Assembly (NCBI GenBank): GCA_016214605.1
Contig: JACROD010000014.1
Span: 1-41,073, forward strand
From: Candidatus Kaiserbacteria bacterium
GTDB lineage: Bacteria; Patescibacteriota; Minisyncoccia; Phycocordibacterales; UBA2100
Length of the DNA: 41,073 bases
Direction of reading: 5' to 3'
Every line of letters begins with the position of its first letter. Position 1 is the first letter of the stretch. This document shows positions 1,968 to 30,702 of the stretch, in pieces. The position numbers were made by a program, and so were the translations under genes. The notes beneath the pieces were generated by a model. The model was not told the DNA's origin and made no database searches. It saw only the letters and a program-made list of their open reading frames with translations.

Positions 1968-2006
1968 AAAGGCGGGGAGCATTGTGCTACCCCGCCTTTA
2001 TTTTTT
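1968..2006. terminator. Intrinsic terminator
   Basis: AAAGGCGGGG-loop-CCCCGCCTTT followed by ATTTTTT. Confidence 0.8.
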
Positions 2007-2065
2007 AGGTCATTTTGACCTTCTCGCGGAAGCGCTTCAGGAGCGCTTCCGCTTTTCTCGATTTT
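2005..2065 (-). pseudogene. Relic of the 3' end of the oxidoreductase gene (copy of 2791-2850)
   Basis: Minus-strand reading ...KSRKAEALLKRFREKVKMT* against KAKQKAEALLKRFREKTT* of the intact gene; CTTCTCGCGGAAGCGCTT(C/T)AGGAGCGCTTCCGCTTTT is shared with one mismatch. Confidence 0.65.
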
Positions 2066-2112
2066 ATTGGACTTGTTTATAATTCACGACCGTATGAGAT
2101 AAACAAGTATTT

Positions 2113-2394
2113 TTATCTCTCGAATATCGACGCGTGCGTACCGATGTCGACGAGGAGCAGGATCAGCATATCATCTTGTTTCTTGTAGAGGAGCAGAAGA
2201 TCACCACGTATGTGACACTCGCGAATACCCTTGTACGCGCCCTTGAGTTCATGGTCGAGATATCGTGGCTCCAGCGGCACATCCTGCGTGAGTTTGATCA
2301 CCACGTCGTCAAGTTCTTCAGCGACAAAGCTTGGGTATTGAGAAACGCGTTTGAGAGACTTTTTGTATCGGCTTGTGGGCTTCACGACGTACAT
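2113..2394 (-). CDS. Type II toxin, RelE/YafQ family mRNA interferase
   Basis: MYVVKPTSRYKKSLKRVSQYP...LKGAYKGIRECHIRGDLLLLYKKQDDMLILLLVDIGTHASIFER; YafQ-like size and C-terminal motif. Confidence 0.85.
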   Translation of the reverse strand: MYVVKPTSRYKKSLKRVSQYPSFVAEELDDVVIKLTQDVPLEPRYLDHELKGAYKGIRECHIRGDLLLLYKKQDDMLILLLVDIGTHASIFER

Positions 2395-2403
2395 AAACCC
2401 CTA

Positions 2404-2679
2404 TTATTTCTTGCCGATGATCTCCCGGTGCATAGCACGCACGTCGGTATATACTTTCCCATGCTTGAGCGCATGATCCGCTTCGCGCATAAGCTGTTTC
2501 ATGAGGGAAGTCGGCGCATTGTCATAGGTGAAGATGCTCTGGGGCACTTCGCCTGTGCGCCCGATATGAGTGAGGAGCAGACGCACGCCGCTCGAAAGGT
2601 CGATACCAGAAGCCTTAAAGACTTTTTGCGCCCTACGCTTTGTCTTCTCGTCGATCCGCACTTGAAGTGTCGTGTTCAT
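2404..2679 (-). CDS. Type II antitoxin, RelB/DinJ family
   Basis: MNTTLQVRIDEKTKRRAQKVFKASGIDLSSGVRLLLTHIGRTGEVPQ...; immediately upstream of the toxin; minus-strand promoter TTGACA-16-TACCAT just upstream. Confidence 0.85.
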   Translation of the reverse strand: MNTTLQVRIDEKTKRRAQKVFKASGIDLSSGVRLLLTHIGRTGEVPQSIFTYDNAPTSLMKQLMREADHALKHGKVYTDVRAMHREIIGKK

Positions 2680-2733
2680 ATGTCCTATGGTAGCAAGTGT
2701 AGTGCTGTTGTCAATACATGATTTTCATACGAA

Positions 2734-2766
2734 AAAGGCGGGGTAGCATAAGCTCCCCGCCTTTAC
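2734..2766. terminator. Intrinsic terminator downstream of the oxidoreductase gene
   Basis: AAAGGCGGGGtagcataagctCCCCGCCTTT; same arms as the 1968 terminator. Confidence 0.7.
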
Positions 2767-2790
2767 TTATTTGTTCTACACAGGTTAAAC

Positions 2791-5700
2791 CTATGTAGTC
2801 TTCTCGCGGAAGCGCTTTAGGAGCGCTTCCGCTTTTTGTTTTGCCTTTTCGATGCTCGCTTGTTTCACGTGCCCATACCCTCGAATCTCTTCGGGGATAC
2901 TGAGCAGAGCAAGGGCATCGTCACGGTTTTTCGCGTTGAGACCGTATCCGATCTCAGCGACAAGCGCTTCGTACTGACGGATCAACTCGCGCTCTTCTTT
3001 GCGGTGCGCGCTGTATCCGAAAGGATCCAGCCACGTCCCGCGCAAGAACTTGAGCTTGGCCAAAACGACGCGCATCAATGTCCGCACCCACGGACCGAAC
3101 TCTCGCTTTTTGATACCCATCATGGGGGGAGCGAGCAGGTGAGTCGCCGTACCGTATTCACTGAATTCGCGCTCAAGCTGTCGCTCGAATGCGCCATCAG
3201 TGTAAAGCCGCGCTACTTCGTACTCATCCTTATAGGCCTTGAGCTTGAAGAGGTTCCTCGAGACCGCCTCGGTAAAAGGCGATCCTTCGGTTGTACCTGC
3301 CCGCACATCGAGCATCTTGGCCTCATTGACGATCTCTAGATATTGATCGGCATATGTGCGGCTTTGATACGCGACGAGCTCCTCCGCGTAGAACCGTATA
3401 CGCTCCTCTTGCGAGTCGGGCAAACGGTTTGCTTCAAACGCCTCTTTCCACCGCCATCCGACACCGTCGAACTCTTGCGGAAAAGCGGCAGCATACCGAC
3501 CGCAGGCAAAAGCATCGAGATTCATCTCCACACCAGCCCCATTGAGATGGATTGCTTCAATGATTGCATCGCCCTTGATGGGGATGAGCCCAAGCTGATA
3601 CGCAAAGCCGACAAGAAAGATGTTGGTCGGCATAGCATCGCCAAATAGCTCGGTCACATAGAATGTTGCCTCTATACCATGCACATGATTCGCACCCACC
3701 GCCTCTGTGAGTGCGGCGAGCATCTTTTCCTTGGGGAACACTTTTTGCGGATGATATATAAACTCCGCCGTCGGTGTCTCGTGCAGATTGATCACGACAC
3801 GGCTCACCCCGCGCTTGAGCAAGGCGAGTGCTTGAGAGCCTACGGAGGTCACCAGATCACACCCGATCATTACATCTGCTTGACCCGGCGGTATGCACGT
3901 CGAAGAGATGTGCTTACTATTGATACGCACATCACTACTGACCAGCCCACCTTTTTGAGCCAAACCGTTCCCTGAATGCCCTGAGACTGGAAACCCGCAG
4001 ATGTGCGCGGCCATGCAGAGTATCCATTCTGCGGTCTTGACACCGGTCCCTCCGATCCCCATGAGTGATATGTCGTACGACCGCTCGGTGAGAATCGGCA
4101 ACACGGGCTCAGGTATCACCCTTTGAGCAAGCTCGCGTGCGAGACCGCGACGGTGCGCGAGCACCGCGCCCTTGACGACAACGAAGCTCGGGCAGAATCC
4201 TTCCGCACAACTTTTGTCTTTGTTGCAACTGTGCTGATCGATCTGGCGTTTTCGGCCAAATTGAGTCTCCACTTGCACCACAGAAAGACACTCCGCCTTT
4301 GCACAATCATTGCATCCTTCGCACACACGCTCATTGATTATCACACGATCAGGCTCCGGCAAGCGACCGCGATTGCGGGCGCGCCGTTTCTCTGCGGCAC
4401 ATCCTTCATCGTAGATGATGACCGAGACGCCGGGCACTTCCCACAGTGATTCCTCGATTGTCTGCATGTTCTTGCGTGGATGGATATGCACACCCGGCGC
4501 ACAATCCTTCACGGAAATGGCTTCGGGAAATTCGGCAACGATTTCGATGCGCCGCATTCCCTCGGCATACAGTATCCACGTGAGCTCCGGCGTCGTATGC
4601 CCGCCTTCGGACTTTTGGCCTCCGGTCATGGCAATAGCGCCATTATTGAGGAGTTTGACTGTAATCCCTTTACCTGACCCAAGTCTTTTGAATCCCGCTT
4701 CCAGCTGCCGTAGAGCAAGCGAACCGGAATGGGCAAACGTGCCGTCGCCCATGTTCCCGGACATGTGTTTTTTATCCGAGAAGGGCATCCACCCGAGTAT
4801 AGGGACCATTTCGCCCCCCATTTGGGTAACGCCTACGGTCTGACTGTCTTGTGGCAAGGCCTTCATGTAGTGGCATCCGATGCCCGCGTACGCTTTTTTC
4901 CCTTCGGCGACATGTGTCGACTTAGGGTGAGGACAACCGGGACAGAAGTGTGGAGTCCTTTGCACTTCTATGAACTGCTGTGCGTGTGCGACCGCATCCT
5001 GCGAGATGATTTCCTTCAGCCGACGATCGAGATCTTCATCGCGACTGCCACACTGTGCACAGGCTTTCACGATCGCATCCGCGATCTGCGCGACCGAGAG
5101 CACTCCAATCGAAGGCAATGCGCCACCGCCCGGGATATTCTTCCCGAAGATACGTGGTGATGTTGGCCTCGCATCGTAGAACATCTTTTTGAGTTGCCCT
5201 TCGACGATATCGGCTTTTTCTTCGACCACAAGCACACATGACGCATTCAGCAGACGCCTCATTGTAGGGGAGTCGAATGATAGGGGGTACGGCATGTCGA
5301 TGCAGACAACGGCGATACCCAGTTTTTGTCGTGCGTGCTCATCGATGCCAAGTAGGCGTAAGGCCTCCATGACTTCGGTGTACATCCTACCTACGCCCAT
5401 GATTACCAGACGCAGATGATCTGTGTCATGGGTAAGCATGTTCAAGTGGTTTGTATGTGCGAATGCTTCTATACGCTTGAGACGGTGCACCATTTTGGCT
5501 TCCAACTCAAGCGGCTTGTCTTTGAGGCTCAGGTGGAGATCGTATAGATCAACGATCTTCGGTACAACGATTTTGAAGCATGGATCGACGAAGATCCGCG
5601 CCGATGCATCGCATATATTGGAGACCAGATTGATTCCGACCCATGAGCCGCTGTGACGGGACATTGCCCACCCCAGCATCATGAAGTCGAACATTTGCTG

Positions 5701-6228
5701 CGGCGTGCTCGGCTCGAGGTAGGGCATGCCGACCTGCATGAGTGCATACCCGGACTGATGCGGAATCGTAGATGACTCATTTCCAGGGTCGTTGCCGATC
5801 AGCGCGAGCGCTCCTCCATGAGGAGAAACTCCTGCGGCACAGGCGTGCATGAATGCGTCCATCGATTGATAGAAGCCAGGGCCTTTGCCATACCACGCGC
5901 TAAAGATGCCATGATAGGGTGTGCCTCCGAATTCCTTCGATTGCTGAGATCCCCATGCGATATTCGCAGCCAAATTTTCGTTGACGGCCATGAAGGATTG
6001 GACATGCGGGGCCCCGACTCTTGCGGCCTCTGCAAGCGAGACATTGAGTCCGCCCAAGGGCGAACCCGTATAACCCCAAGCACCCCCGGCAGTGTTCAGG
6101 CCTGCCCGCTCGTCTCGCTTGCGCTGGACGAGCAGAGGAAGCGCCAAAGACTGCATGCCGGTGAGATACATGTACGTCGCCGTCTCAGGTACCGACGGCC
6201 AGTTGAGCAGTGGTAATTTTTCGCTCAT
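2791..6228 (-). CDS. Indolepyruvate ferredoxin oxidoreductase family protein (fused 2-oxoacid:ferredoxin oxidoreductase)
   Basis: LTGMQSLALPLLVQRKRDERAGLNTAGGAWGYTGSPLGG N-terminus, Fe-S cysteines CEGCNDCAKAEC...CNKDKSCAEGFCP, GIGGTGVKTAEW. Start placed at ATG 6228 (MSEKLPLLNW) with an AGAGGAA SD; the 104 aa upstream in the ORF track look non-coding. Confidence 0.92.
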   Translation of the reverse strand: MSEKLPLLNWPSVPETATYMYLTGMQSLALPLLVQRKRDERAGLNTAGGAWGYTGSPLGGLNVSLAEAARVGAPHVQSFMAVNENLAANIAWGSQQSKEFGGTPYHGIFSAWYGKGPGFYQSMDAFMHACAAGVSPHGGALALIGNDPGNESSTIPHQSGYALMQVGMPYLEPSTPQQMFDFMMLGWAMSRHSGSWVGINLVSNICDASARIFVDPCFKIVVPKIVDLYDLHLSLKDKPLELEAKMVHRLKRIEAFAHTNHLNMLTHDTDHLRLVIMGVGRMYTEVMEALRLLGIDEHARQKLGIAVVCIDMPYPLSFDSPTMRRLLNASCVLVVEEKADIVEGQLKKMFYDARPTSPRIFGKNIPGGGALPSIGVLSVAQIADAIVKACAQCGSRDEDLDRRLKEIISQDAVAHAQQFIEVQRTPHFCPGCPHPKSTHVAEGKKAYAGIGCHYMKALPQDSQTVGVTQMGGEMVPILGWMPFSDKKHMSGNMGDGTFAHSGSLALRQLEAGFKRLGSGKGITVKLLNNGAIAMTGGQKSEGGHTTPELTWILYAEGMRRIEIVAEFPEAISVKDCAPGVHIHPRKNMQTIEESLWEVPGVSVIIYDEGCAAEKRRARNRGRLPEPDRVIINERVCEGCNDCAKAECLSVVQVETQFGRKRQIDQHSCNKDKSCAEGFCPSFVVVKGAVLAHRRGLARELAQRVIPEPVLPILTERSYDISLMGIGGTGVKTAEWILCMAAHICGFPVSGHSGNGLAQKGGLVSSDVRINSKHISSTCIPPGQADVMIGCDLVTSVGSQALALLKRGVSRVVINLHETPTAEFIYHPQKVFPKEKMLAALTEAVGANHVHGIEATFYVTELFGDAMPTNIFLVGFAYQLGLIPIKGDAIIEAIHLNGAGVEMNLDAFACGRYAAAFPQEFDGVGWRWKEAFEANRLPDSQEERIRFYAEELVAYQSRTYADQYLEIVNEAKMLDVRAGTTEGSPFTEAVSRNLFKLKAYKDEYEVARLYTDGAFERQLEREFSEYGTATHLLAPPMMGIKKREFGPWVRTLMRVVLAKLKFLRGTWLDPFGYSAHRKEERELIRQYEALVAEIGYGLNAKNRDDALALLSIPEEIRGYGHVKQASIEKAKQKAEALLKRFREKTT

Positions 6229-22963: not shown

Positions 22964-24472
22964 ATGGGATCACGGATACTCTGGTCGGCGACCATCGGAT
23001 TTCTCGCGGGCGTGCTCGTGCGCTCTTTTGTCCCGCTCGGTCCGAACTACGCGCTTTTTCTCGCCGCCATTACTGGCGTGTTTTTACTTGTGCTCTATCT
23101 ATATGATCATGTGCATTTTCACACTGGCGTCGTGATCGCGATCGCATGCCTGGCCTTTGCTGGCGGGATCATGCGCATGAATGCCGCGATACTTCCCACC
23201 GACCCGATTACACATATGTACGTCGGTGAGCGCGTCACCGTGACCGGCTATATCTTTGCCGAACCCGACGCACGCGAGACCAACACGCGCCTCTCGATCC
23301 GCGCACATACGCTCACTACTGCGGCAGGGAGTAGCACCATACACACGGGCATACTTGCCGTGTTGCCGCCGCATACACATGCCACATACGGCGATGAGAT
23401 CGTCGTGTCGGGAATACTGCGCGAGCCGGAATCTTTTGATACTACCCTCGGTCGCGTCTTTAATTACCCGGCATATCTCGCGGTGAGCGGCATATCATAT
23501 CAGCTCACTTCGGCGCACATTGATTCTATCGGGGAGAACTCCGGCAACGCCGGCTACGCGCTCGTGATCCGCATCAAGGAAGTATACCTACGCGGCCTTC
23601 ATCGCGCGCTGGCCGAACCGTACGCCGGGCTTGCCGGAGGGATCACCGTCGGCGACAAACGCTCGATCGGAGAGGATCTATCGGCGGATTTTCAGCGCGC
23701 AAGCCTCATCCACATGCTCGTACTCTCCGGCTACAACATCACCGTCGTCATCAATGCGGCTGCCTATATCTTCTCGCGTTTTCCGCGCATCATACAATTC
23801 GGCACGAGCGGATCGATCGTGGTCTTTTTCATAGCACTCTCCGGAGGCGCGTCGAGCGCCGTGCGCGCAGGCCTCATGGCCTTGATCGCCGTCTATGCCC
23901 GCCAACATGGCCGCGTATTTTTGCCGCTACGCGCCGTCGGCACCGTCGCAGTCGGCATGGCATTATGGAATCCATACATCGTCGCTTTTGATCCAGGCTT
24001 TCAGCTCTCGGCACTCGCGACCATCGGCCTCGTCGCATTCACCCCGATATTTGCCGCGCGCATGCAATGGCTCACGGAATCGTTCGCTCTGCGCGAGGTC
24101 ACCGCTTCGACCATCGCGACACAACTCACGGTCCTCCCGCTCCTTTTGTATCAAAATGGCCAACTAAGTCTTGTCGCGCTCCCGGCCAACATTCTCGCAC
24201 TCGCGCCGGTGCCTTTTGCGATGTTTGCCTCTTTTGTCGCGGCGATCGGCGGTATCTTTTCTGACACACTTGCCGCCATCATCGGGCTGCCGGCCTACTT
24301 ACTCCTCTCGTATATCATCACGATCACGCGATTCTTCGGGTCATTGCCTTTTGCCTCGGTCTCTATTCAAGCCTTCGGTTTTGGCTGGCTTGTGGGAGCA
24401 TATGCGGCTCTCTTTCTAATCTGGAAACATACTTATAAAGAGAAGAGCGACCCTTCGGCCGCTCTTTCCTAA
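22964..24472 (+). CDS. comEC: ComEC/Rec2-family competence membrane protein, without C-terminal MBL domain
   Basis: GLAGGITVGDKRSIGEDLSADFQRASLIHMLVLSGYNITVV; SGGASSAVRAGLMALIAVYARQHGR; multi-TM. Confidence 0.9.
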   Translation: MGSRILWSATIGFLAGVLVRSFVPLGPNYALFLAAITGVFLLVLYLYDHVHFHTGVVIAIACLAFAGGIMRMNAAILPTDPITHMYVGERVTVTGYIFAEPDARETNTRLSIRAHTLTTAAGSSTIHTGILAVLPPHTHATYGDEIVVSGILREPESFDTTLGRVFNYPAYLAVSGISYQLTSAHIDSIGENSGNAGYALVIRIKEVYLRGLHRALAEPYAGLAGGITVGDKRSIGEDLSADFQRASLIHMLVLSGYNITVVINAAAYIFSRFPRIIQFGTSGSIVVFFIALSGGASSAVRAGLMALIAVYARQHGRVFLPLRAVGTVAVGMALWNPYIVAFDPGFQLSALATIGLVAFTPIFAARMQWLTESFALREVTASTIATQLTVLPLLLYQNGQLSLVALPANILALAPVPFAMFASFVAAIGGIFSDTLAAIIGLPAYLLLSYIITITRFFGSLPFASVSIQAFGFGWLVGAYAALFLIWKHTYKEKSDPSAALS

Positions 24473-25691: not shown

Positions 25692-26555
25692 ATGCGTCGA
25701 AGCGTCCGGATCACCGGGATTTTGATAGTCGCTCTTTTTGCCGTCTCGGTGGTCGTTTGGGGTGCAGTACTGCGCGAAGCCCGGCACGGCGTACTGACAG
25801 TATCTTTTCTCGATATAGGGCAGGGCGACTCGATCTATATCGAGTCGCCCTCAGGCCTCACCGCACTCATCGACGGCGGCCCCACTGCCGGAGTATTGCG
25901 CGAGATCGGCAAAATGAGCCCGTGGTACGACCGATCTATCGACGTGATCATCCCTACACATCCCGATGCCGACCATATCACCGGACTGATCGACGTGCTC
26001 GAACGCTACCAAGTAGCGTATGTCGTGCGATCGAGTGTCGAAGGTGATACCGCCACCTGGCGCACACTCGAAGAAATGATCGAGGCTCGTGCACAAAAGG
26101 GGACGAGCGTGATCACCGCAGACCGCGGACAGATCATTGATATCGGCGGCGGTGCGTATCTCGAGGTGCTTTCCCCTGATCGTTTCGTGCCAAATCTCGA
26201 GACCAATACCGGGTGCGTCGTGACGAGACTCGTCTACGGCAACACCTCATTTATGCTTTCGTGCGACGCTCCACAGGCGATAGAAAAATACCTCGTCTCG
26301 CTGGACGGCACCAATCTCCATTCAAATGTCTTAAAAGCGGGACATCATGGCTCAAAGACGTCATCTTCGCCGCTTTTTGTCGGATACGTCGACCCACAAT
26401 ACGCCGTGTATTCGCGCGGATGCGACAATATATACGGCATGCCGCACAAAGAGACCATCGCAACATTCGAAGCATTCAATATACCCACACTCGACACCTG
26501 CACCATGGGCACCATAGTATTTCACTCCGACGGCACTAAAGTGTGGCAAGAATAA
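25692..26555 (+). CDS. ComEC C-terminal-like metallo-beta-lactamase-fold protein
   Basis: VSFLDIGQGDSIYIESPSGLTALIDGGP, IIPTHPDADHITGLIDVLERY, LKAGHHGSKTSSS, N-terminal TM. Confidence 0.9.
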   Translation: MRRSVRITGILIVALFAVSVVVWGAVLREARHGVLTVSFLDIGQGDSIYIESPSGLTALIDGGPTAGVLREIGKMSPWYDRSIDVIIPTHPDADHITGLIDVLERYQVAYVVRSSVEGDTATWRTLEEMIEARAQKGTSVITADRGQIIDIGGGAYLEVLSPDRFVPNLETNTGCVVTRLVYGNTSFMLSCDAPQAIEKYLVSLDGTNLHSNVLKAGHHGSKTSSSPLFVGYVDPQYAVYSRGCDNIYGMPHKETIATFEAFNIPTLDTCTMGTIVFHSDGTKVWQE

Positions 26556-26888: not shown

Positions 26889-26987
26889 GTTACCCTCATT
26901 TTAGGATTACAGAGGTATTCTAGAGTAGAATGTATCATAAAGCATGTTTTTGTCAAGATGCACACGGAAATATGCTATAGTTTCCCG

Positions 26988-28946
26988 ATGCATACCGAAG
27001 AATCACGTTATTTACAGGGCTTAAATCCTCAACAAAAAGAGGCTGTGCTGTGCACTGAGGGGCCCGTTTTGATCGTCGCTGGTGCGGGTGCCGGCAAGAC
27101 CAAGACCATCACACACCGTATCGCACATATGATCGAGCAGGGGATACCGGCCCGATCGATTCTCGCGGTCACCTTTACCAATAAAGCCGCGGGCGAGATG
27201 CGTGATCGCGTGCGCCATTTGATACCCGAAGGCCGCGGCACGCCGCTGGTCGCCACCTTTCACTCTCTGGGCGTACGACTCTTGCGTGAATTCCACACCG
27301 AAGCAGGGCTTGAGCGCGGATTCAGCATCTGGGATCGCGACGACAGCATGCGCGTGGTCAAAAAGGCACTCGAGAAGCTCGACATCGAAAACATTCCCCC
27401 ACGACAAATCCTCTCGATCATCTCGCGCGAAAAAGGTGACGGCATGACCGTGGCACGATATGAAGAAAAGAAAGCGAGTTCGTTTAAGGAGCAGACCGTC
27501 GCGCAAGTGTGGCGCATCTACGACAAGGCGTTGCACGAAGAAGGCGCGCTCGACTTTGACGACCTCCTCGGTCGAACATTGCAGCTCCTGCAAAACTCGC
27601 CACGCGTGCTTGAGCTTTTGCGCGGCCGCTGGAAGTACATCACGATAGATGAATATCAGGATACGAACGCCGCGCAATACGAGATCGCACGACTACTCGC
27701 AGGCGAGCGGTGCAATCTCTGCGTCGTCGGCGACACCGACCAAAATATCTACTCGTGGCGTGGCGCTGATATTGAGCACTTGATGAACTTTGAAAAGACC
27801 TTTCCCGGCACCAAGGTGATCCTCCTCGAACAAAATTACCGCTCGACACGTACCATCCTCACCGCTGCCAATTCTGTCATCGCCAAGAATAAACGCCGCA
27901 AGGAGAAAAATCTTTTCACCGACAACGACACCGGCGAACCGCTCATGGCATACGGCGCGCGCAATGAGATCGACGAATCATGGTTCGTCGCACAGACCGC
28001 AGTCACACTGATGGAAGAGGGGATCAATCCTGCCGAGATAGCCATCCTCTACCGCGAAAACTTCCAGTCGCGCGCACTCGAAGAAGCACTACTCGCATTT
28101 TCGGTGCCGTATCGCGTACTCGGCACCAAATTCTTCGAGCGCAAAGAGGTCAAAGACACGCTCTCGTATCTGCGTGCCGCGCTCAATCCGCGCAGCAAGG
28201 TCGACCTCGCACGCATCGTCGGTGTGCCTGCGCGCGGCATCGGCAAGGTCACGCTCGACAAACTATTCGATACTTCAGATATGCCGGTCGATGCGGAACC
28301 TGGCATATGGAGTCATCTCGCCCTACACTCGCTCACCGGATCGGCACGCATCAAAGTACAGACATTTCTCGATACGATCCAAAAGATCCGCCACGCGATC
28401 GACACCCTGCCCACCTCCGAAGCAGTGCGCTACTGCGTCGAGGCCTCGGGCATGGAGCAGATGTACAAGGACGACAAAGAAGAGGGGTATGAACGTCTCG
28501 AAAACATCCGCGAACTCGTCAACCTCTCGGTGCGCTACGACGACGTCTCGCCGCCCGAAGGCATTGAGCGCCTACTCGAAGAAGCGGCTCTGCAGAGCGA
28601 CCAGGATGAGCTCACCGAGGTCCAGCAGGCAGTGTCTCTCATGACCATTCACGCATCAAAAGGGCTTGAATTCGACGCGGTATTCATCACCGGCCTCGAG
28701 CAAGGACTCTTTCCCTCGCTGCGCGAGGACACCCGCGACCCCGAAGAAGAACGTCGCCTCTTTTATGTGGCGGTGACCCGCGCACGCAAGCGACTCTTCC
28801 TCAGCTACGCCGGCGAGCGCATGAAATACGGTTCGCGCGAGCGAGCGCTTGCGTCCGAATTCATCCACGACATCGACAAGCGCCTCATCGTCCACTCCTC
28901 GCGCGACGGAGACTTGGGCGCGGGATTTGAGCGCGTGATCGATTGA
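26988..28946 (+). CDS. uvrD/pcrA: ATP-dependent DNA helicase UvrD/PcrA
   Basis: LNPQQKEAVLCTEGPVLIVAGAGAGKTKTITHRIA, VTFTNKAAGEMRDRV, ITIDEYQDTNAAQY, LEQNYRSTRTIL, TIHASKGLEFDAVFITGLEQGLFPS, RRLFYVAVTRARKRLFLSYA. Confidence 0.96.
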   Translation: MHTEESRYLQGLNPQQKEAVLCTEGPVLIVAGAGAGKTKTITHRIAHMIEQGIPARSILAVTFTNKAAGEMRDRVRHLIPEGRGTPLVATFHSLGVRLLREFHTEAGLERGFSIWDRDDSMRVVKKALEKLDIENIPPRQILSIISREKGDGMTVARYEEKKASSFKEQTVAQVWRIYDKALHEEGALDFDDLLGRTLQLLQNSPRVLELLRGRWKYITIDEYQDTNAAQYEIARLLAGERCNLCVVGDTDQNIYSWRGADIEHLMNFEKTFPGTKVILLEQNYRSTRTILTAANSVIAKNKRRKEKNLFTDNDTGEPLMAYGARNEIDESWFVAQTAVTLMEEGINPAEIAILYRENFQSRALEEALLAFSVPYRVLGTKFFERKEVKDTLSYLRAALNPRSKVDLARIVGVPARGIGKVTLDKLFDTSDMPVDAEPGIWSHLALHSLTGSARIKVQTFLDTIQKIRHAIDTLPTSEAVRYCVEASGMEQMYKDDKEEGYERLENIRELVNLSVRYDDVSPPEGIERLLEEAALQSDQDELTEVQQAVSLMTIHASKGLEFDAVFITGLEQGLFPSLREDTRDPEEERRLFYVAVTRARKRLFLSYAGERMKYGSRERALASEFIHDIDKRLIVHSSRDGDLGAGFERVID

Positions 28947-28969
28947 TATGGTCATGCAAGAAGGACTTG

Positions 28970-28995
28970 CATTGTGCGTCATTTGACGTACAATG
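28970..28995. promoter_or_regulatory. Operator-like palindrome overlapping the TA promoter
   Basis: CATTGTGCGTCA-tt-TGACGTACAATG, 12-bp arms with one mismatch, containing the predicted -10 TACAAT. Confidence 0.6.
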
Positions 28996-29000
28996 GTGGC

Positions 29001-29303
29001 ATGGGTAAAACAACGGCAAAAACACAGATTGTGCAGGCGCGGGTGACGCCCCAGCTTAAGCGGGATGCCGAACACGTTCTAGATAAAATCGGCATCTCGA
29101 CGACCGATGCATTTCGTATGTTCCTCCGACAAGTCGTCCTGCAGAAAGGACTGCCGTTTGAGGCGAAAGTGCCGAATAAAGCAACTATCGCGGCGTTTCG
29201 AGAAGATGTGAACAAACTCAAAAGCTATACTTCGACCGAGGAAATGTTCAAAGACATTCTAGGCAAAAACTGGCGAACGCGCGAAAAGAAGAAGTATGCG
29301 TAG
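29001..29303 (+). CDS. Type II antitoxin, RelB/DinJ family
   Basis: MGKTTAKTQIVQARVTPQLKRDAEHVLDKIGISTTDAFRMFLRQVVLQKGLPFEAKVPN. Confidence 0.88.
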   Translation: MGKTTAKTQIVQARVTPQLKRDAEHVLDKIGISTTDAFRMFLRQVVLQKGLPFEAKVPNKATIAAFREDVNKLKSYTSTEEMFKDILGKNWRTREKKKYA

Positions 29304-29565
29304 GCGCTTGCCGACACGCGCTTTTGAGAAAGACGTAAAACGACTTGATGATCGTGGCGTTCGACTCGACCCACTCTTTCGTATTATTGAAATACTACAG
29401 AACGATGGCCGATTACCCATCTCATTTCGCCCTCATAAACTGCACGGCGAGTGGGCAAGATATTGGGAATGTCATGTCGGCAACGATTGGTTGCTTGTAT
29501 ACGCCGTCACAGATAGGGAAGTGGTCCTCTATCGCACCGGATCACATACCGATATTTTTGAATAA
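29296..29565 (+). CDS. Type II toxin, YafQ family mRNA interferase
   Basis: RRLPTRAFEKDVKRLDDRG...LHGEWARYWECHVGNDWLLVYAVTDREVVLYRTGSHTDIFE; overlaps the antitoxin. Confidence 0.88.
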   Translation: MRRRLPTRAFEKDVKRLDDRGVRLDPLFRIIEILQNDGRLPISFRPHKLHGEWARYWECHVGNDWLLVYAVTDREVVLYRTGSHTDIFE

Positions 29566-29568
29566 TAT

Positions 29569-29712
29569 GGGTTTATCAGTGAGCGCATAAAATACGGCTC
29601 CCGCGAGCGAGCCCTTTCATCAGAATTCCTCAACAACATTGACTCCCGCCTCATGGTCAGCACCTCGCGGGATGGCGACACGAGTGGAGGATTTGAACGT
29701 ATCATTTCATAA
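29569..29712 (+). pseudogene. Duplicated 3' end of uvrD/pcrA
   Basis: GFISERIKYGSRERALSSEFLNNIDSRLMVSTSRDGDTSGGFERIIS* aligns with the intact ...AGERMKYGSRERALASEFIHDIDKRLIVHSSRDGDLGAGFERVID*. Confidence 0.9.
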
Positions 29713-30169: not shown

Positions 30170-30445
30170 ATGACTAAGACCGTTTTAAATGTAAAGATCG
30201 ACCGCGATATCAAGATAAAGGCGCAGGGACTCGCCAAGCGCATGGGGATCCCCCTCTCGCTCGTCATCGGAGCCCATTTACGTACGTTCGTACGCGAACA
30301 ACGACTTGAGATCCGTGAACCACTTCGTCCACGCGCCGCTGTGGGACATGCACTATTCAAGGCCCGTAGTGATTTTGATAGTGGTAAAAACACTTCGCCT
30401 GTATTCGATTCGGGTACGGATATGGATGAATATTTGGGGATATGA
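30170..30445 (+). CDS. Antitoxin, RelB/RHH-like
   Basis: MTKTVLNVKIDRDIKIKAQGLAKRMGIPLSLVIGAHLRTFVREQRLEIREPLRP; promoter TTGCAC-17-TATACT; followed by a RelE-like toxin. Confidence 0.8.
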   Translation: MTKTVLNVKIDRDIKIKAQGLAKRMGIPLSLVIGAHLRTFVREQRLEIREPLRPRAAVGHALFKARSDFDSGKNTSPVFDSGTDMDEYLGI

Positions 30446-30702
30446 GGATCGTCCTACATAAGACACTCGAGAAAAAGCTCAGGAAATTGCCACGTACCGT
30501 TCAGGATGCCTACAAAAAACGTCGCGATATTTTTCTTACCAATCCGTTTGAAAAAATCCTCAACAATCATCCGCTTCAAGGTGAATATGTAGGTTTTTGG
30601 AGTATTAATATCACCGGCGACTATCGTGTGATCTATGATCTGGTCGATGACGACCTTGCGCATTTCATTATGATCGGCACACATACGGAGCTGTACGAAT
30701 AG
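30442..30702 (+). CDS. Type II toxin, RelE/ParE superfamily
   Basis: MRIVLHKTLEKKLRKLPRTVQDAYKKRRDIFLTNPFEKILNNHPLQGEYVGFWSINITGDYRVIYDLVDDDLAHFIMIGTHTELYE. Confidence 0.88.
   Translation: MRIVLHKTLEKKLRKLPRTVQDAYKKRRDIFLTNPFEKILNNHPLQGEYVGFWSINITGDYRVIYDLVDDDLAHFIMIGTHTELYE

Follow-up and report, generated by a model that had tools for sequence, protein, structure and literature searches.

A toxin–antitoxin pair between two copies of an oxidoreductase gene end

The window, meaning the whole 41,073-nucleotide stretch of DNA analyzed here, spans the opening 41 kb of a 158-kb contig from the 1.09-Mb genome of a “Candidatus Kaiserbacteria” bacterium (G000), whose relatives have genomes of 0.4 to 1.6 Mb. 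Its first module (positions 1968 to 6228) consists of an intact oxidoreductase gene, a toxin–antitoxin (TA) pair, and a second copy of the oxidoreductase gene end.

2791..6228, minus strand: intact indolepyruvate ferredoxin oxidoreductase-like gene, the target of the module (NCBIfam NF009589, 1104 bits; Pfam POR and DUF6537; start codon inferred)
2734..2850, minus strand: attached copy of the oxidoreductase gene 3′ end plus terminator, from repeat comparison (fold −58.4 kcal/mol, z −9.1)
2404..2679, minus strand: RelB/DinJ-family antitoxin (Pfam RelB; NCBIfam TIGR02384, over cut-off)
2113..2394, minus strand: YafQ/RelE-family toxin (Pfam YafQ_toxin, 2.2e-26; TIGR02385, over cut-off)
2068..2109, no strand assigned: operator-like palindrome ACTTGTTTATAATTC...ATAAACAAGT
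1968..2065, minus strand: displaced copy, a second oxidoreductase 3′ end plus terminator, from repeat comparison

Along the minus strand, the oxidoreductase 3′ end with its terminator (2850-2734) is followed by RelB (2679-2404), YafQ (2394-2113), the palindrome (2109-2068), and the second 3′ end with its terminator (2065-1968). The coordinates, the terminator arms, and the TA genes at 2113-2679 recorded in the first-pass annotation were all borne out on re-examination, as was a core of 37 to 38 nt with one mismatch between the two end copies. Within the window the core gave exactly two perfect matches, compared with 0 in 100 shuffled sequences. The annotation had also proposed a genome-wide search for the core, on the grounds that a high-copy hairpin dispersed between genes could stand on both sides by chance. 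With up to 3 mismatches allowed, the core was found at these two places only in the 1.09-Mb genome, and the dispersed hairpin was rejected. The core is a perfect 11-bp hairpin inside the oxidoreductase coding sequence, and the close match of the two cores therefore does not in itself point to a recent event; the blocks as a whole are ~71% alike. The displaced terminator (1968-1999) comes close to being the reverse complement of its attached counterpart (2734-2764): the arms are unchanged, and the loop is inverted. Rfam searches returned sub-threshold matches only, the best being an L20 leader.

The oxidoreductase gene itself is rare, being present in 2 of 97 related genomes, and the only relatives found for it in named genomes are from distant Proteobacteria, at ~40% identity, which suggests horizontal acquisition.

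A second module behind uvrD

A module of the same anatomy (28815-29712) lies further along the window, behind a helicase gene.

26958..28946, plus strand: intact uvrD/pcrA helicase gene, the target of the second module (Pfam UvrD-helicase, UvrD_C)
28815..28946, plus strand: attached copy of the uvrD 3′ end, from repeat comparison
29001..29303, plus strand: RelB/DinJ-family antitoxin (Pfam, NCBIfam)
29296..29565, plus strand: YafQ/RelE-family toxin (Pfam, NCBIfam)
29581..29712, plus strand: second uvrD 3′ end (displaced copy), without indels and in frame up to the stop codon (differences at the three codon positions, 11/6/19)

The uvrD end copies are 76% identical over 119 nt. In both modules the antitoxin and toxin genes are adjacent in one operon and match type II RelB/YafQ-RelE models (toxicity predicted); PADLOC gave no match for the TA proteins. 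The two modules had initially been described as unrelated to each other and identically arranged. The arrangement is indeed the same, while the description as unrelated does not hold, as both pairs are of the RelB plus YafQ/RelE type; their toxins are 30% and their antitoxins 26% identical.

A third RelB/RelE-type pair, with no detectable bracket, occupies positions 30170-30702, between the displaced uvrD end and rsmA. The uvrD-rsmA interval of the window genome holds two TA pairs; in its place, relative G015 has a gene that by eye resembles a REP-associated tyrosine transposase, with AGGAACCAGGTTCCTAAGT-like repeats (L041:5404-6160). A few kilobases upstream of uvrD lie comEC (Competence domain; 22964-24472) and a separate metallo-beta-lactamase gene (25692-26555) resembling the ComEC C-terminal domain.

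Bracketing of TA loci across the genus

In 52 genomes of the genus, we looked for YafQ-type toxins and screened each toxin locus by self-comparison for straddling direct repeats. Such repeats were found at 14 of 65 YafQ-type loci and at 0 of 454 control intervals in uvrD loci (P = 6e-14). Two of the 14 (L126 and L064) are straddled by a hairpin repeat found in more than one genome, the remaining 12 by repeats specific to their locus. The hairpin-bearing repeat of L064 and L126 (AACACAAAACCACCC...GTTTGTGTT) is present in several copies, in both G009 and G023. Brackets were also found at 5 of 30 loci of a second TA family, Phd/YefM, and at 0 of 28 loci of a glycosyltransferase family used as a control. 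Phd alone differs from the glycosyltransferases only at P = 0.05; with the TA families pooled (19/95 vs. 0/28), P = 0.007. Four of 29 YafQ loci in other genera of the phylum were straddled, one of them by a repeat unlike a gene end.

The bracketing of TA loci is real and systematic in the genus. The suggestion in the first-pass annotation that the two modules reflect a shared mechanism rather than coincidence is supported, since the same anatomy recurs at many unrelated genes and genomes and is absent from the controls.

Targets, junctions, and arrays

The repeats are the ends of unrelated conserved genes, namely rnc, fusA, uvrD, rodA, ruvB, a comM-like gene, a hydrolase gene, and the oxidoreductase gene; 5′ ends are also used, at a site-2-protease-like gene and a pilB-like gene. 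Named from translations and not from annotation, the targets comprise at least ten unrelated genes, and the TA pairs stand in either orientation. The rnc end is a target in two genomes (G018 and G023), with different TA families; in most relatives, the fusA or uvrD end is present only once. TA inserts measure 579 to 760 bp, essentially from promoter to toxin stop, and the duplicated length ranges over all cases from 28 to 151 bp. Measured displaced copies begin between the toxin stop itself and ~100 nt past it; in G017, the TA promoter region supplies the stop codon of the attached gene and the toxin stop overlaps the displaced copy. By eye, no shared motif was seen at 19 junctions, nor was any recombinase or integrase gene seen inside the TA inserts, which hold TA genes only. 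At the rnc locus of G023 (L337), the junction of toxin stop and displaced rnc end is a 9-bp inverted repeat, GGTTTGGTT-AAC-AACCAAACC.

The oxidoreductase end recurs as a target in relative G015, where a Phd/RelE pair on the opposite strand lies between two copies of the end that are 98.8% identical over 81 nt. Among the loci compared, the operator-like palindrome occurs only at the oxidoreductase loci of G000 and G015 (in the latter at L040:5974-6012), on different sides of different TA pairs. It is possible that the palindrome is a relic of an older TA pair, and since it is common to both genomes, the oxidoreductase site may have a longer history.

Behind fusA, repeated fusA ends were found in 5 of 46 genomes, and most cassettes are closed by a fusA 3′ fragment. 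Pairs in these arrays for which no Pfam search was run were named from sequence.

G050: fusA-[Phd/RelE]-fusA′-[CopG-like/MazF]-fusA″
G036: fusA-[340-aa gene]-fusA′-[RelB/RelE]-fusA″
G030: fusA-[Fic protein]-fusA′-[two large genes]-fusA″-[Phd/RelE]-fusA‴
G039: two fusA fragments, a Fic protein, and a Phd/RelE pair
G024: fusA-[ParE-like remnant]-fusA′-[RelB/RelE-like pair]

The Phd/RelE pairs found at fusA, in four species, are all of a single subfamily. Five of 10 subfamily members lie on a fusA contig within ~3.5 kb, compared with 1 of 20 other Phd pairs, a difference whose P value of 0.009 is only indicative, as the groups were drawn by eye and post hoc.

Cargo is not confined to TA pairs. 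In 400 kb of sampled stretches, half of them from the window genome, the same anatomy was found at the ends of recA and rplT: a 151-bp, 95%-identical copy of the recA end lies beyond a 298-aa gene (L251:12173-13069) that has no Pfam, NCBIfam, or PADLOC match, and a 39-bp repeat of the rplT end surrounds an isochorismatase-like gene. Because the recA and rplT ends bracket non-TA cargo, the process is not TA specific; a mechanism peculiar to TA pairs was rejected on this ground and on that of the non-TA cargo of the fusA arrays. In the window and the sampled part of its genome, TA pairs make up 3 of the 5 recognized bracketed inserts. In G041 (L260:8557-18049), a repeat of ~120 bp (TTCCAATCTACGAATATATTCC...) occurs many times between the genes of an apparent ribosomal-protein operon.

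Divergence of the two gene ends

In 14 comparisons of end copies, 95 codons differ synonymously and 36 nonsynonymously, where 29.5 and 104.6 would be expected under neutral decay. If one copy were constrained and the other decaying, ~60% of the changes should be nonsynonymous, compared with 27% observed (P = 6e-14). The synonymous bias is weakest at uvrD (12:14), where nonsynonymous changes still fall below the neutral expectation of 22; the oxidoreductase copies have a single difference in the stretch compared, too few for the bias to be judged. The peptides encoded by attached and displaced ends are almost the same. Because the differences are mainly synonymous, the two copies in the diverged cases each evolved as a functional gene end, in separate lineages, and came together only later; divergence of this coding type speaks against simple target-site duplication and in favor of recombination across lineages. 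On sequence evidence, the second copy in the diverged cases is an independently evolved gene end and not a simple duplicate of the first. Simple target-site duplication was rejected for these cases on the synonymous bias, and the duplicated lengths are not fixed. The attached uvrD copy of the window is closer to G015 over most of its length, its last residues being common to the two window copies only; for fusA and rnc, the relatives are too distant to tell a native from a foreign copy.

Proposed displacement of gene ends by imported DNA

These observations suggest that TA pairs are brought in when imported DNA recombines at the conserved ends of genes, on occasion several in succession. Our best reading, to which we assign a probability of roughly 0.6, is an integrase-free displacement of 3′ ends by homologous recombination of imported DNA, with retention of the addictive TA cargo. 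DNA from another lineage, consisting of a TA pair and the end of a gene X, would recombine with the resident gene X within the conserved end. Gene X would remain whole, with the TA pair beside it and a second X end, plus terminator where present, beyond the pair; TA cassettes would in this way be placed directly behind, and sometimes in front of, conserved genes. The event could be a single crossover of a circle carrying the TA pair and the X end; uptake of linear DNA by transformation, from a donor already arranged as X-TA-x, would give the same product. Repeat events at one gene would generate arrays of the type X-TA1-x-TA2-x, and an addictive pair would resist being lost when the direct repeats recombine. 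The parts of this scheme that we infer are homologous recombination, import through transformation, and the role of addiction in the over-representation of TA pairs.

In favor of displacement are the excess of brackets at TA loci over the controls, the serial arrays at fusA, the synonymous bias, the single ends of most relatives, the variety of targets, and junctions and inserts in which neither a common motif (by eye) nor a recombinase gene was seen; in addition, the same targets (oxidoreductase, rnc, and fusA) carry different TA pairs in different species. The presence of comEC in 49 of the 52 genomes and in the window counts in favor of import, and comEC-dependent transformation has been demonstrated in Saccharibacteria (PMC10633639). 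Against it, repeats of 28 to 150 bp with 75 to 95% identity are poor RecA-type substrates unless longer homology in the gene body is used, and each new combination of TA pair and target would need a further, unexplained step of illegitimate joining at its birth. About four-fifths of TA loci show no bracket, which also counts against displacement. More tentatively, conserved gene ends might serve as an integrase-free attachment system, in which a TA pair joined to a gene-end fragment would form a self-propagating cassette that finds the same gene in other species by homology, stacks into arrays, and is fixed by addiction.

A product of the same anatomy, with the native end displaced beyond the insert as at e14/icd, would result if an integrase provided in trans inserted small nonautonomous TA elements, each with a substitute gene end, into the ends of genes by site-specific integration. 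The recurrent use of fusA, rnc, and the oxidoreductase gene agrees with this, but we consider it unlikely in view of the number of unrelated targets, the use of both 3′ and 5′ ends, the variable duplications, the two TA orientations, the lack of a common junction motif by eye, and the lack of an integrase in the inserts. Homology-facilitated illegitimate recombination, which is known in naturally competent bacteria, would join a linear X-TA fragment homologously within X on one side and illegitimately inside the recipient X end on the other, in independent one-step events. It explains the variable duplicated length, a foreign attached end, and, by mirror image, the 5′-end cases; a random right joint, however, should usually carry along the next gene of the donor, whereas the measured displaced copies start at most ~100 nt from the toxin stop, and we regard this route as rather improbable. 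A transposition-like insertion with an unusually long and variable target-site duplication, after which the displaced copy decayed, would look like the young cases, in which the copies are 98 to 100% identical (G015, G017, G001, and G041), but it is hard to reconcile with the mainly synonymous divergence of the others and seems very unlikely. Chance repeats, a dispersed hairpin, or mis-assembly can be practically dismissed: the core is a hairpin, the hairpin repeat around L126 and L064 recurs in more than one genome, and the assemblies are drafts, yet the core has only two copies in the genome, the control intervals gave none, and copies that have diverged and stay in frame are not the product of assembly error.

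How small chromosomal TA pairs without mobility genes enter genomes is a long-standing question. Under displacement by imported DNA, the scars of insertion would still be legible, the bracketing homologous gene end recording a recombination between lineages and serving as a marker for finding such events elsewhere. The same process would offer a natural explanation for TA arrays behind essential genes, as well as a testable route for gene gain in reduced genomes like those of Patescibacteria, namely, DNA import and homologous recombination at conserved gene ends.

Comparison with known systems

The cargo genes are ordinary members of the type II TA families RelB/YafQ-RelE, Phd/YefM-RelE, and MazF, and only their genomic setting is unusual. 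Integron gene cassettes are small, often encode TA pairs, and occur in arrays, each cassette ending in a characteristic sequence. The modules described here are likewise small, often TA encoding, and arrayed, but they terminate in coding gene ends, which vary between loci. When prophage e14 integrates at icd, the gene retains a full homologous end, with another end on the far side of the insert. Unlike integration of the e14/icd type, the inserts described here are below 1 kb with no integrase seen in them, and they use many unrelated targets and both gene ends.

Partial duplication of the target gene around an insert is also a feature of single-crossover and homology-facilitated recombination; in E. 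coli, a single crossover with a shortened circle produced partial target duplications of 109 to 950 bp (PMC3240628). That work concerned laboratory constructs in E. coli and reported no natural TA route.

A close parallel in outcome is the displacement of rhs C-terminal tips, for which circles and homologous recombination have been proposed (Jackson et al. 2009, PMC2935791). There, too, an imported end displaces the old one, which is left downstream, serial arrays are formed, and the duplicated length varies (PMC2935791). As at rhs loci, an intact gene is followed by displaced homologous end fragments at uvrD and the oxidoreductase gene of the window and in the fusA arrays. In rhs, however, the displaced tips are polymorphic toxin domains and the shared cores are identical (PMC2935791), whereas the targets described here are housekeeping genes, unrelated to one another, that keep their product; the cargo is a separate TA pair, and the copies have diverged. 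In rhs-type displacement, alternative C termini would be expected to give the product a new function; here, the two ends specify almost identical peptides. In the literature searched, which lay mostly outside subscription journals, we found no account of TA pairs flanked by displaced ends of housekeeping genes. Displacement itself is known from rhs; what appears new is the displacement of gene ends at housekeeping genes, mostly with TA cargo and with no integrase seen in the insert.
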